DNA from: Natronoarchaeum mannanilyticum
GTDB lineage: Archaea > Halobacteriota > Halobacteria > Halobacteriales > Natronoarchaeaceae
Assembly: GCF_039522665.1 (NCBI RefSeq)
Contig: NZ_BAAADV010000004.1
Location: 248,001 to 312,000 of the forward strand
Reading direction: 5' to 3'
DNA: 64,000 bases
The notes below the pieces were generated by a model. That model was given only the letters and a program-made list of their open reading frames with translations. It was not told the DNA's origin and did no database searches. Position numbers and translations under genes: made by a program. Positions 54,074 through 58,466 of this stretch are shown here, in pieces (position 1 is the first letter of the stretch; each line of letters starts with the position of its first letter).

Positions 54074-56407
54074 GTGGACGAGACGATCGAGTGGCTGCGC
54101 GGCCGCCCCTACTACGACGGCCAGATCGCGGAGCGACGCGTCGTCCCCGGAAGCGACGCCGACCTCGCGGAGCTCGACGTCGAGGATCGGCTGGCCGGCG
54201 CGCTGGCCGACCGCGGCATCGAGTCGGCGTACGCCCATCAGGCCGACGCCATCCGGACGATTCGTGACGGCCGCAACGCCGTGCTGGCGACGCCGACGGC
54301 GAGCGGCAAGAGCCTCGCGTACACCGTCCCGGCGTTCGAGCGGGCGCTGGACCGCCGGGCGACGACGCTGTACGTCGCCCCGCAGGTCGCGCTGATCAAC
54401 GACCAGGCCGAGACGCTGTCGGATCTGGCGCACGATCTCGGCTTCGCCAGCGGCGTCACCGTCGACCGCTACACCGGTCGGCTCTCGAAATCCGAGAAAG
54501 AGGGCGTCCGGGATCGACAGCCGACTGTCTTGCTGACGACGCCCGACATGCTCCACTACGGCATCCTGCCGCACGGACACCGGCTGTGGGACTGGTTCTT
54601 CCAGCGCCTGGAGACCGTTGTGATCGACGAGGTCCACGAGTACCGCGGCGTGTTCGGCAGCCAGGTCGCACTCGTGATGCGCCGGCTCCAACGCCTGTGC
54701 GAGCGGTTCGACGCCGATCCGCAGTTCGTCTGTTGCTCGGCGACGATCGCGAATCCCGCCGAGCACGCCGCGAACGTGACCGATCGGCCCGCCGACTCGT
54801 TTTCGGTCGTCGACGAGGACGCCTCGGCGTCGGGCCCGACCCACTGGCTGCTGTGGAACCCGCCCGAGTACGAGCGCGAGGACCAGGGATCGGGCCGCCG
54901 ACGCTCCAGTCACGTCGAGGCAAAGCGTCTGTTCGTCGACCTCGTCGTCCGGGGGTACCAGACGGTGGTGTTCACCCGGGCGCGCCAGACCGCCGAGCGC
55001 TACGCCAGCGACAGCGCCGAGGCGCTTCGCGACCGCGGGTTCGCCGACGAGGCCAGCGGCGTCACCGCCTATCAGGCAGCGCTCAAGCGAGATCGCCGCG
55101 ACGAGATCGAGGCCGGCCTCCACGACGGCGACATTCGGGGCGTCTGGAGCACGAACGCCCTGGAACTCGGCGTCGACATCGGCGGGCTCGACGCCGTCAT
55201 TCTGGATGGCTACCCCGGCACGAAGATGGCGACCTGGCAGCAGGCCGGCCGCGCGGGACGCGGGACCGACCCGAGCCTCGTCGCGCTGGTCGCCGGCGAA
55301 GACCAGCTCGACCAGTACGTGATGCGCACGCCCGACGAACTGTTCTCCGGCGATCCCGAGCACGCCGTCGCCAACCCCGAAAACGACCAGCTCGTCCCGC
55401 CCCACGTCCTCGCCGCGGCGCGCGAGAACTGGCTGTCGGCCGACGACGAGCGCCACTTCGGCGCCCAGTTTCCGGACGTCGTCGCGGAACTGGAGTCTGC
55501 GGGCGACCTCGAACGGCGGACGACCAACAAGGGCGTGCGCTGGACGGCCGACGTCGACGGTAGCCCGCACCACGAGATGAGCCTTCGCTCGATCGACGAC
55601 CGCGAAATACAGCTCCTCGACGCGCGCTCCGGCGACGCCATCGCCAGCCTGCCCTTCGCCGACGCACTGCGCGACGCCCATCCCGGCGCGATCTACCACC
55701 ACCAGGGCCAGCGCTACGAGGTGACCGACCTCGACCTGGATCGGGATCTCGCCGAACTCTCTCCGACGTGGGCCGACTACCACACGCGCGTGCTCCACGA
55801 CAAGGAGATCACCGTCGAGCGCGACATCGACGAGCGGCGGCTTCCGGATCGGGATGATGTGACAGTGGGGTTCGCTGAGGTGACGATGCGCAAGCGGATC
55901 ACCGGCTTCGAGCGCCGCGACGCCAAGCGCAGCGAGCCCATCGCTCGCGAGACGCTCGATCTGCCCGAGACGACGCTCCGGACGCGCGCGCTGTACTTCA
56001 CTCAGCCCGACTCCATGCAGGCCGACATTCGGGCGACTGCGACGGACTCGGAGGACACCTTCGAGGGCGCGATCCACGCCGCCGAGCACGCGCTCATCTC
56101 GCTGTTCCCGCTCCAGGTGCTGTGCGACCGGCGCGACATCGGCGGCCTGTCGACGCCGCGGCATCCCCACACCGGCGAGAGCACGATCTTCGTCTACGAC
56201 GGCTACCCCGGCGGCGTCGGGCTGACGCGCGAGGGGTACCAGCGTCTGCCGGAGATGCTCGGTCGGACTAGGGAACTGCTTGCAGAGTGTCCCTGCGAGG
56301 ACGGCTGTCCGAGCTGCGTGCAGTCGCCCCACTGCGGGAACGCCAACGACCCGCTATCGAAGGGGCTGGCGCTGGATCTGGTCGAACGCCTGCTCGATTC
56401 TCAGTAG
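54074..56407 (+). CDS. DEAD/DEAH-box helicase with DUF1998 zinc domain (YprA/MrfA-like)
   Basis: This protein has about 777 residues from the GTG at 54074; a TTG at 54050 would add eight. Motifs are Q-like YAHQADAIR, Walker A ATPTASGKSLAYT near residue 90, Walker B VVIDEVHEYRG, and CCSATIANP as motif III. The second RecA domain carries STNALELGVDIGGLDAVI and QQAGRAGRG. The C-terminus carries a Cys cluster CPCEDGCPSCVQSPHCGN typical of DUF1998. The Bacillus relative MrfA repairs mitomycin-damaged DNA; a DNA-repair role is therefore inferred. The stop codon lies within a perfect 7-bp hairpin (56403-56420). Confidence 0.93.
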   Translation: MDETIEWLRGRPYYDGQIAERRVVPGSDADLAELDVEDRLAGALADRGIESAYAHQADAIRTIRDGRNAVLATPTASGKSLAYTVPAFERALDRRATTLYVAPQVALINDQAETLSDLAHDLGFASGVTVDRYTGRLSKSEKEGVRDRQPTVLLTTPDMLHYGILPHGHRLWDWFFQRLETVVIDEVHEYRGVFGSQVALVMRRLQRLCERFDADPQFVCCSATIANPAEHAANVTDRPADSFSVVDEDASASGPTHWLLWNPPEYEREDQGSGRRRSSHVEAKRLFVDLVVRGYQTVVFTRARQTAERYASDSAEALRDRGFADEASGVTAYQAALKRDRRDEIEAGLHDGDIRGVWSTNALELGVDIGGLDAVILDGYPGTKMATWQQAGRAGRGTDPSLVALVAGEDQLDQYVMRTPDELFSGDPEHAVANPENDQLVPPHVLAAARENWLSADDERHFGAQFPDVVAELESAGDLERRTTNKGVRWTADVDGSPHHEMSLRSIDDREIQLLDARSGDAIASLPFADALRDAHPGAIYHHQGQRYEVTDLDLDRDLAELSPTWADYHTRVLHDKEITVERDIDERRLPDRDDVTVGFAEVTMRKRITGFERRDAKRSEPIARETLDLPETTLRTRALYFTQPDSMQADIRATATDSEDTFEGAIHAAEHALISLFPLQVLCDRRDIGGLSTPRHPHTGESTIFVYDGYPGGVGLTREGYQRLPEMLGRTRELLAECPCEDGCPSCVQSPHCGNANDPLSKGLALDLVERLLDSQ

Positions 56408-56420
56408 ATTGCGATCTACT
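56403..56420 (+). terminator. Hairpin overlapping the helicase stop codon
   Basis: AGTAGAT-TGCG-ATCTACT is a perfect 7-bp stem with a 4-nt loop. No T-run follows directly, so termination is only possible. Confidence 0.35.
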
Positions 56421-56454
56421 TCGGATCCTCTGTGAGACCGGCACAGCGGTTAAC

Positions 56455-56715
56455 AACACCACGAAAGCCCCCGCTCGCTCCGGTCGAGGGGCTTGCTGCG
56501 CGCGCTCCCTTCGGTCGCGTGCTTACGGCGCCCGTCTTCCCGGAGCGAGCGGCCCCTTTCAGTCCCACCCGTGTCGGCTGATCAGTCAGGCATCGCGGGT
56601 GGGACTGAAAGGGGCTGAGCGTTCGGCGAACCCGGACGAAGCAAGCACCGCAGGCCGAAGGCCGAGGAGCGCAGCGAGTCCCGGGAGCCGAACGCTCAGG
56701 GGCTTTCGTGGTGTT
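56455..56715. repeat. Cloverleaf (four-way junction) inverted-repeat element, 261 nt
   Basis: Four perfect stems nest without unpaired bases at the junction. The closing stem is 56455-56471 with 56699-56715 (17 bp). Arm A is 56472-56483 with 56540-56551 (12 bp). Arm B is 56552-56571 with 56596-56615 (20 bp, 24-nt loop). Arm C is 56616-56627 with 56687-56698 (12 bp). Arm A contains an inner hairpin with loop TCCCTTCGGTC, and arm C contains GGCC-GAA-GGCC. The only frames here are translations of the repeats. It fills the gap between the helicase and rhomboid genes; the remainder up to 56804 has nothing I recognise. Confidence 0.85.
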
Positions 56716-56804
56716 CGTGGTCGAATTCGAAGATGCCCCTCCGGATACATCACTTCCCAGGTCCCCTCGCAACTTCTTTCAACACCACGCTCCCTTGATC
56801 CGGT

Positions 56805-58466
56805 ATGATTCCGCTGCGGGCCGCGCTGTTCGCCGCGGCCGTCGCGCTGCTCGCGCTGTCGGCGATCGCGATCGTCCGCGCCGACAGGCCCGGCGGGGCG
56901 TGGGGTCGCCGACTGCGCTCCCGACTGCTCCTCGGTATCCCCTGGGGAACGATCGTCTCCGTGCTGTTCGTGCTCGCGGTGTACCTGTTCCTCCAGCAGG
57001 GGTACTGGTACTGGTACGACCCCGTGACGATTCCGTTTCGATCGTGGTCGTACCTCTACCCGACGGGCTGGCTGGCGTCGGGCTTCTCCCACGCCGGGCC
57101 CGGCCACCTGCGGGGCAATCTGACGGCGACGCTCGTGCTCGCCCCAATCGTCGAGTACGCGTGGGGCCACCTGCCCCAGGAGCGGGGTAGCAACTCGTTC
57201 GATTCCTGGAAAACGAACCCCTGGATCAGAGCGTTCGTTCTCTTTCCGGCGGCGGTGCTCGGCCTCGGCCTGCTGACCAGTCTGTTCGCGCTCGGGCCCG
57301 TCATCGGCTTCTCCGGCGTCGTGTTCGCGTTCGCCGGGTTCGCGCTGGTTCACTACCCCGTCGCGACGGTGGTCGCGCTGCTGGTCTCCAGCGTCGTCTC
57401 GACCGTCATCCCCGCGCTGCTCGACCCGATCGTCTCGGTGACGGTGTCGGCGAGCCCGCCCGCGCCGCCGTCGTGGGCCGGGATCGCCATCCAGGGCCAC
57501 GCGCTCGGGCTCTTCCTCGGGCTGGTGCTCGGGCTGGTGGTGTTGCACCGCCGGACGGGGACGCCGAGCGCCGCGCGCGTCTGGCTCGCCGCGCTGGTGT
57601 TCGCCGTCATCCAGCGGCTCTGGGCGGTCTACTGGTTCCGCGGCGAGGGGACGTACGTGCTGTTCCGCGGGGTCGGCGTCGCGCTGGTGCTGTTGCTCGC
57701 GCTCCTGATCACGGTCGCCGCCGTGGCGTCCGAACGGCCGCTGCTTTCGAGAGACGTCCCCGCCCTCGATTGGATTACGCGCCGCCGCGTCGCCGTCACG
57801 GCCGTCGTGCTGGGCGTCGCCGTGCTGGCCGGGCCGGGGATCGTCCCGAACCTCGTCACCGTCGACGGCGGCGTCGGCCCCGAGGACGCCGTCGAAGTCG
57901 AGGACTACACGGTCACGTACGCCGAGAACGTCACCAACCGGATGGTGTCGGTGATCGAGATCGAGGCGTTCGGCGAGTCGACCGAGGTCAGGACCAGCGG
58001 GGTGATCATCACGAGCGAGCAGCGCCACCTCTGGTTGCGCCAGGCTTCGAGCCAGCGACTCGCCTACACCGGCGAGGTCGACGTCCGGTTGGGCGGCGTC
58101 GGCTGGAGCGAGCAGGTCGTCGCGACTCGCGAGGGCTGGACCGCGGCGGGCAACGACACGGCCTACCATGTCTGGCTCGATCCCGCCAGCGGTCCGGAGC
58201 GCCACGTGTTCTCGTCCGAGAGCCACACCGCCGCGCCGCGGATCGACAACCGATCCGTCTCGATCGTGCCCGAGGACGGAGAGTTCTACCTCCGAGTCGA
58301 GCGCGAGAACGAGTCGCTCGGGCGCGTCGAAATCCCCGAGGTCGGCAAGTCCGTCGACGCCGGGGGACTGACGTTCGCGACCGAGCGGCGCGAGGGTCGG
58401 CTCGTCGTGACAGCCGAACGGGGCGGAACGAGCGTCGCGGTCGCTCGTGAAGAAGTGTACCGGTAG
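56805..58466 (+). CDS. Rhomboid family intramembrane serine protease
   Basis: This 553-residue protein has about ten membrane segments. The rhomboid core is in the middle: HAGPGHLRGNL (His and Asn of the oxyanion region) near residue 100, catalytic Ser in VIGFSGVVFAF near 175, and the catalytic His in IQGHALGLFLGL near 230. The C-terminal 200 residues form a predicted beta-rich extracytoplasmic domain after the last helix, seen in archaeal members. It cleaves membrane proteins; the substrate is unknown. Confidence 0.9.
   Translation: MIPLRAALFAAAVALLALSAIAIVRADRPGGAWGRRLRSRLLLGIPWGTIVSVLFVLAVYLFLQQGYWYWYDPVTIPFRSWSYLYPTGWLASGFSHAGPGHLRGNLTATLVLAPIVEYAWGHLPQERGSNSFDSWKTNPWIRAFVLFPAAVLGLGLLTSLFALGPVIGFSGVVFAFAGFALVHYPVATVVALLVSSVVSTVIPALLDPIVSVTVSASPPAPPSWAGIAIQGHALGLFLGLVLGLVVLHRRTGTPSAARVWLAALVFAVIQRLWAVYWFRGEGTYVLFRGVGVALVLLLALLITVAAVASERPLLSRDVPALDWITRRRVAVTAVVLGVAVLAGPGIVPNLVTVDGGVGPEDAVEVEDYTVTYAENVTNRMVSVIEIEAFGESTEVRTSGVIITSEQRHLWLRQASSQRLAYTGEVDVRLGGVGWSEQVVATREGWTAAGNDTAYHVWLDPASGPERHVFSSESHTAAPRIDNRSVSIVPEDGEFYLRVERENESLGRVEIPEVGKSVDAGGLTFATERREGRLVVTAERGGTSVAVAREEVYR

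Follow-up and report, generated by a model that had tools for sequence, protein, structure and literature searches.

The repeats closest to the one described here belong to three systems: the MITEs of the IS6 family, the REPINs/BIMEs, and the SMR-A and PATE repeats of haloarchaea. IS6 elements generate repeats of 8 bp, and their ends have the tip GG and the motif cTGTt (PMC7986276). SMR-A, with a length of about 110 bp and inverted ends, targets the palindromes of PATEs, which carry near-terminal palindromes (PMC3119063), and the work on REPINs mentions a 'clover' configuration (PMC3116915). The window, a stretch of 64,000 nucleotides from Natronoarchaeum mannanilyticum, contains a 261-nt element that is read here, with a probability of about 0.78, as an old copy of a non-autonomous DNA transposon (MITE), whose family is spread over most haloarchaea and is composed of two convergent foldback units around a short palindromic arm. 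A very widespread repeat of haloarchaeal genomes, undescribed in the literature searched, would thereby be explained as a MITE family.

Architecture and distribution of the element

The original prediction proposed four perfect stems meeting at a junction without a gap, and this is borne out by the coordinates (Table 1), the pairing and the folding energy: all four stems are perfectly paired where they had been placed, and the four-arm shape is the minimum-energy fold of the strand (−196.3 kcal/mol). Such nesting had been thought unlikely by chance, and it lies far beyond it, as 200 dinucleotide shuffles give −132 ± 5 kcal/mol (z −12.5) and 0 of the 200 are as stable. It is not locus-specific either, because the same genome harbors a paralogue with 90% identity to the window element over 260 nt, and over 90 additional short cloverleafs come from this genome and from other haloarchaea. 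A chance structure is ruled out by the z value, by the paralogue and by the wide distribution of the unit described below.

The stems do not represent four separate coincidences, since one hairpin unit is present twice, as unit 1 and, inverted, as unit 2. This composition is evident from BLAST alignments to the window's genome and to related ones, which break at positions 11-127 and 152-272 of the query, on opposite strands. The sequences flanking unit 2 are reverse-complementary to those flanking unit 1, and therefore outer and central stems and a gapless junction are formed, as they would be by any convergent pair of such hairpins; the exact junction is accounted for by two convergent copies of a single hairpin unit of ~100 nt. 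The unit follows the plan GAAAG-CCC-(variable stem)-loop-(stem)-CCC-CTTTCAGTCCCACC and is preceded by AACNNCNN.

Table 1. Features of the element, numbered from the first nucleotide of the window.
Feature	Position	Strand	Remark
Outer arm, left (AACACCAC), element-specific outer stem	56455..56462	+	pairs with 56708-56715
Hairpin unit 1 (GAAAG-CCC-stem-loop-stem-CCC-CTTTC)	56463..56560	+	model match G000:C4:304453-304573:+
Variable stem of unit 1, 5' arm	56471..56483	+	pairs with 56540-56552
Variable stem of unit 1, 3' arm	56540..56552	+	pairs with 56471-56483
Central arm, 5' side (GCCCCTTTCAGTCCCACCCG)	56552..56571	+	pairs with 56596-56615
Central arm apex, itself partly palindromic (CGGCTGATCAGTCAG)	56572..56595	+	
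Central arm, 3' side	56596..56615	+	pairs with 56552-56571
Hairpin unit 2 (inverted copy of unit 1, other variable stem)	56607..56707	-	model match G000:C4:304594-304717:-, the genome's best
Variable stem of unit 2, one arm	56615..56627	+	pairs with 56687-56699
Variable stem of unit 2, other arm	56687..56699	+	pairs with 56615-56627
Outer arm, right (GTGGTGTT)	56708..56715	+	pairs with 56455-56462

The many copies to be expected of a repeat are indeed found with a covariance model of the unit, which has 49 matches in the window's genome and occurs in 246 of 292 Halobacteriales genomes and 65 of 77 genera. About 84% of the sampled species carry the unit and about 16% of the genomes are without it at the threshold used, the genome of Halonotius roseus (G250) reaching 97 matches. 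A pattern for the centre of the short cloverleaf matches at least 120 stretches and, among the matches listed, all are haloarchaeal. Some copies reside on haloarchaeal plasmids; no viral carriage was found in IMG/VR for the pattern used, and no match to the element in the phage collection. In the fetched loci, close unit pairs are convergent in 104 of 104 cases, with a spacing of mostly 35-48 nt and in a few of up to 252 nt (range 35-252 nt), and in the wider-spaced pairs the layout is unchanged and the central arm larger. The elements are short and dispersed in many copies, carry no transposase gene and leave no coding room between the units; no autonomous version with a gene between two units was found in these loci, where the spacing is at most 252 nt.

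Several variants accompany the short form. About 20 similar copies of a long form of 450-660 nt occur in the window's genome (L008, L010, L013, L031, L033, L036, L037 and L039-L043 among them), in which the left hairpin is the same, a core of 250-300 nt (CTCCCCAACCG ... CTGTCTCGCCATGAAGGCTCGACAG ... GCGTGGTCGCC) is conserved and the right hairpin has diverged. An insert made of two small hairpins (TTCGAAAG...CTTTCGTGATGACGARAG...CTTTCGAACCAC) is found across genera within the unit loops (L030, L031, L035 and L040 in the window's genome, L340 in a Haloarcula-like genome, and L075), and seems to be a nested element that targets hairpin loops. Around position 3652 of L319, a copy lies within a perfect inverted repeat that extends at least 50 nt beyond the element on each side, which is either a genuine large palindrome or an error of the assembly. 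The family also concerns genome annotation, which places hypothetical ORFs over units of this kind: the long ORFs across the window element (56287-56808 and 56416-56772) look like annotation artefacts of the repeat, and the hypothetical protein Halar_0093, whose annotation spans a unit of strain DL31 (L395 785-1318, CP002989), looks like another.

Stem covariation and the molecule that folds

Pairing figures for the variable stems and the cloverleafs are inflated by the choice of units with at least 6-8 pairs, and the unbiased tests of the stems are an alignment of 41 units picked by their end motifs only and the outer stem. In the motif-selected alignment, 97.8% of the stem cells are paired, 32 two-sided changes stand against 0 one-sided ones, and the covariation score is 0.262, compared with 0.059 ± 0.012 for shuffled and at most 0.048 for slid alignments. 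The outer 8-bp stem, which lay outside the selection criteria, is 84.9% Watson-Crick (59.8% when shuffled, maximum 63.9%), and its sequence varies by genus while mostly remaining self-complementary. The compensatory changes anticipated in the original prediction are hence present at the level of the family. The internal CCC/CCC mismatch is unpaired in 95 of 95 copies, a weaker kind of evidence because the C runs are partly contained in the search motif, and the inner-loop sequence is conserved across units.

The stems also seem to be renewed on a larger scale. Between the 90% identical copies of the window's genome the stems of unit 2 are strongly unlike, each still being complementary, and the congener's copy at the orthologous site has a different unit-1 hairpin, of a type found in the long elements. 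Hairpins seem to be exchanged between copies as whole cassettes, and such an exchange would explain why one-sided changes are absent.

A strong fold, a conserved inner loop and covarying stems would equally be expected of a structured RNA, that is, a regulatory 3' UTR element, a terminator or a small RNA, and an RNA in the 3' region of the helicase transcript had been suggested for this locus. This explanation is disfavoured and highly improbable. G.U and A.C are both rare and about equally frequent in variable stem positions 1-10 (12 versus 13 of ~1500 cells), and G.U is the rarer of the two in the cloverleaf set read in unit orientation (9 versus 26). The elements are intergenic, between gene pairs that are tandem, divergent or convergent in 72, 56 and 28 cases, like the background of 190, 118 and 65; the gene-context comparison revealed no preference for a unit orientation or a gene end, and no recurring neighbour gene family beyond shared orthologous loci. 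A terminator or gene-orientation role was rejected for this lack of bias in gene context. Rfam 15 returned nothing above gathering score, only weak sub-threshold matches and a neighbouring tRNA. As G.U does not exceed A.C and placement is blind to gene direction, a DNA structure is favoured over an RNA.

Mobility, ends and candidate mobilisers

The original prediction of a cruciform-forming mobile repeat is supported by dispersed copies, by sites that are occupied or empty and by near-identical copies in unrelated flanks. The joined flanks of two occupied loci match uninterrupted DNA in 6 and 4 related genomes, and alignment of orthologous sites reveals the same place occupied, partly deleted or empty among relatives. 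Decay of these sites consists in the loss of hairpins; at the congener's orthologous site unit 1 and the apex are present and unit 2 is absent. In G258, a genome from a genus other than the window's, copies are 97-99.7% identical over ~370-377 nt and lie in unrelated flanks.

Relatives of the window element also possess terminal inverted repeats with target duplications. The G258 copies are bounded by the inverted ends GGTA(C/G)TGTTYAGATAAGC, about 40 nt outside GAAAG, and ends of this kind are immediately flanked by exact direct repeats of 8-9 bp in ten different elements (L356, L358, L357/L145, L171, L301, L121/L251, L074, L252, L318 and L139). Repeats of at least 8 bp occur within the searched zone in 14 of 97 pairs, compared with 4 of 97 when flanks are exchanged. 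The same ends bound an IS of ~695 bp in G250, which has its own 8-bp duplication (CTAGTACC) and encodes a 213-aa IS6-family transposase (NF033587, E 7.5e-56). MITE and autonomous element have ends in common within one genome in G250 and in G258, the transposase gene of the G258 IS being shortened. Besides Halonotius, several genera have ends of the IS6 type with a duplication. As a family the elements are MITEs, being short, gene-less and dispersed, with terminal inverted repeats and duplication at the family level. The earlier view that no named family fits was a reasonable one, although the element does fall into the known class of MITEs.

The search for target duplications, positive for the family in these ten elements, is negative at the window copy, where none is visible; neither IS6-like ends nor a target duplication were found there or at the other copies of its genome, which does have intact IS6 transposase genes. 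IS6-type ends were not found in the Haloarcula-like copies, nor on the element of a plasmid in halophilic archaeon DL31. Copies of the window's genome and of Haloarcula-like genomes have CTAG-containing ends, sometimes with tandem repeats of the end, and for that reason other transposases may be used there.

Further repeats were observed beside the elements. Tandem direct repeats of the element end (about 47-60 nt, up to four copies) lie outside the element in L036, L040, L041 and L042 of the window's genome and in L245, L282 and L285 of Haloarcula rara, joined at CTAG- or TCTGG-containing sequences. Truncated long forms of genus g7 (L153, L157, L160, L161) have TTTATAA(ATAG) repeats on both sides, possibly a target duplication or a shared promoter-like target, and in the Halosimplex-type loci L176, L177, L216 and L311 short tandem repeats of a CGACCGCGAACAGCGT-like sequence stand next to the element ends.

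As for the enzyme involved, the family would be moved in trans by an IS6-type transposase in at least some genera, judging from the shared ends, and for the subfamily to which the window copy belongs IS6 is, on grounds of kinship alone, the best available guess. Copy number is not predicted by the presence of IS6: no IS6 match was obtained in several genomes rich in copies, many zero-copy genomes have one, and in the absence of an association the presence of the IS6 family alone is no evidence.

It could also be argued that the units are recognised single-stranded by an HUH (Y1) tyrosine transposase, in a REPIN/BIME-like system comparable to REP doublets, which RAYTs mobilise, or to haloarchaeal PATEs, which are moved by an IS605-type TnpA. 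The inverted hairpin pair, intergenic position and compensatory changes closely resemble a REPIN; many copies, including that of the window, have no target duplication, as is the case for the palindrome-bearing haloarchaeal PATEs (PMC3119063). Such a mechanism is nevertheless improbable, because Y1_Tnp (PF01797) is absent from G250 with its 97 unit matches and from G108 with 28, and is present in many zero-copy genomes, and because no neighbouring gene recurs; moreover, the inverted ends and 8-9-bp duplications of the ten related elements are of DDE type, not HUH. Y1/HUH mobilisation was rejected, Y1 genes being associated neither with copy number nor with the neighbourhood, and a PATE/IS605 type does not agree with the inverted ends and duplications of relatives with intact ends.

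A cellular DNA site, kept for the benefit of the host and bound by a nucleoid protein, a resolvase or a chromosome-organising factor, would fit the long persistence at orthologous loci, the mostly chromosomal copies, the constant mismatch and the conserved inner loop. The genomes without the element at the threshold used (about 16%) and the decay of sites by hairpin loss speak against it, and the 97-99.7% identical copies, together with the duplications in relatives, show selfish spread, so that this is hardly a probable explanation.

Proposed mechanism and comparison with known systems

According to the MITE reading, an IS6-type DDE transposase would copy and insert the element in trans, and one strand, or a cruciform, of the two convergent units would make the four-way cloverleaf. 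The hairpin body may be kept since the DNA fold matters for replication, for co-integrate resolution or for protein binding. The window copy, in which no IS6-like ends or duplication are visible, is read as old and vertically inherited; its insertion would have followed the same general route and preceded the split of the species from its congener, and its recognisable ends would have been lost afterwards. A more tentative idea, possible but rather unlikely, is that the conserved hairpin unit is a module adopted by different haloarchaeal transposons behind different ends. The mismatch and inner loop would then form a protein-recognition structure in single-stranded or cruciform DNA, by analogy with integron attC or REPIN although with no known enzyme, and the stems would be renewed by whole-hairpin exchange. 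The family raises the question of why, throughout an order, a MITE keeps a DNA junction of four arms whose internal mismatch is fixed.

Searches of the literature by sequence and by terms yielded nothing that matches the family, MITEHarch3 being only named. MITEHarch3 and MITEBth2, the IS6-family MITEs in ISfinder (PMC6807381, PMC7986276), are like the present family in lacking a transposase gene and in their few hundred bp, and they have IS6-type ends with an 8-bp target duplication, as do the copies of Halonotius and several other genera; many genera of the present family differ in carrying other ends, and no cloverleaf or order-wide family is described for IS6-family MITEs in the text consulted. 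MITEHarch3, which appears to be haloarchaeal from its name, may be a relative. REPINs and BIMEs (PMC3116915) share with the present family the inverted doublet of palindromic units, the intergenic and dispersed position and the compensatory stem changes, but their units measure 20-40 nt instead of ~100 nt, and the present family differs from REPINs in having no link to a Y1/RAYT gene and in relatives that make target duplications. SMR-A and the PATEs of Haloquadratum walsbyi (PMC3119063) are, like the present family, small transposase-free haloarchaeal repeats. Both are described as making no target duplication, and PATEs as having no inverted ends, whereas intact relatives of the window element do make duplications.
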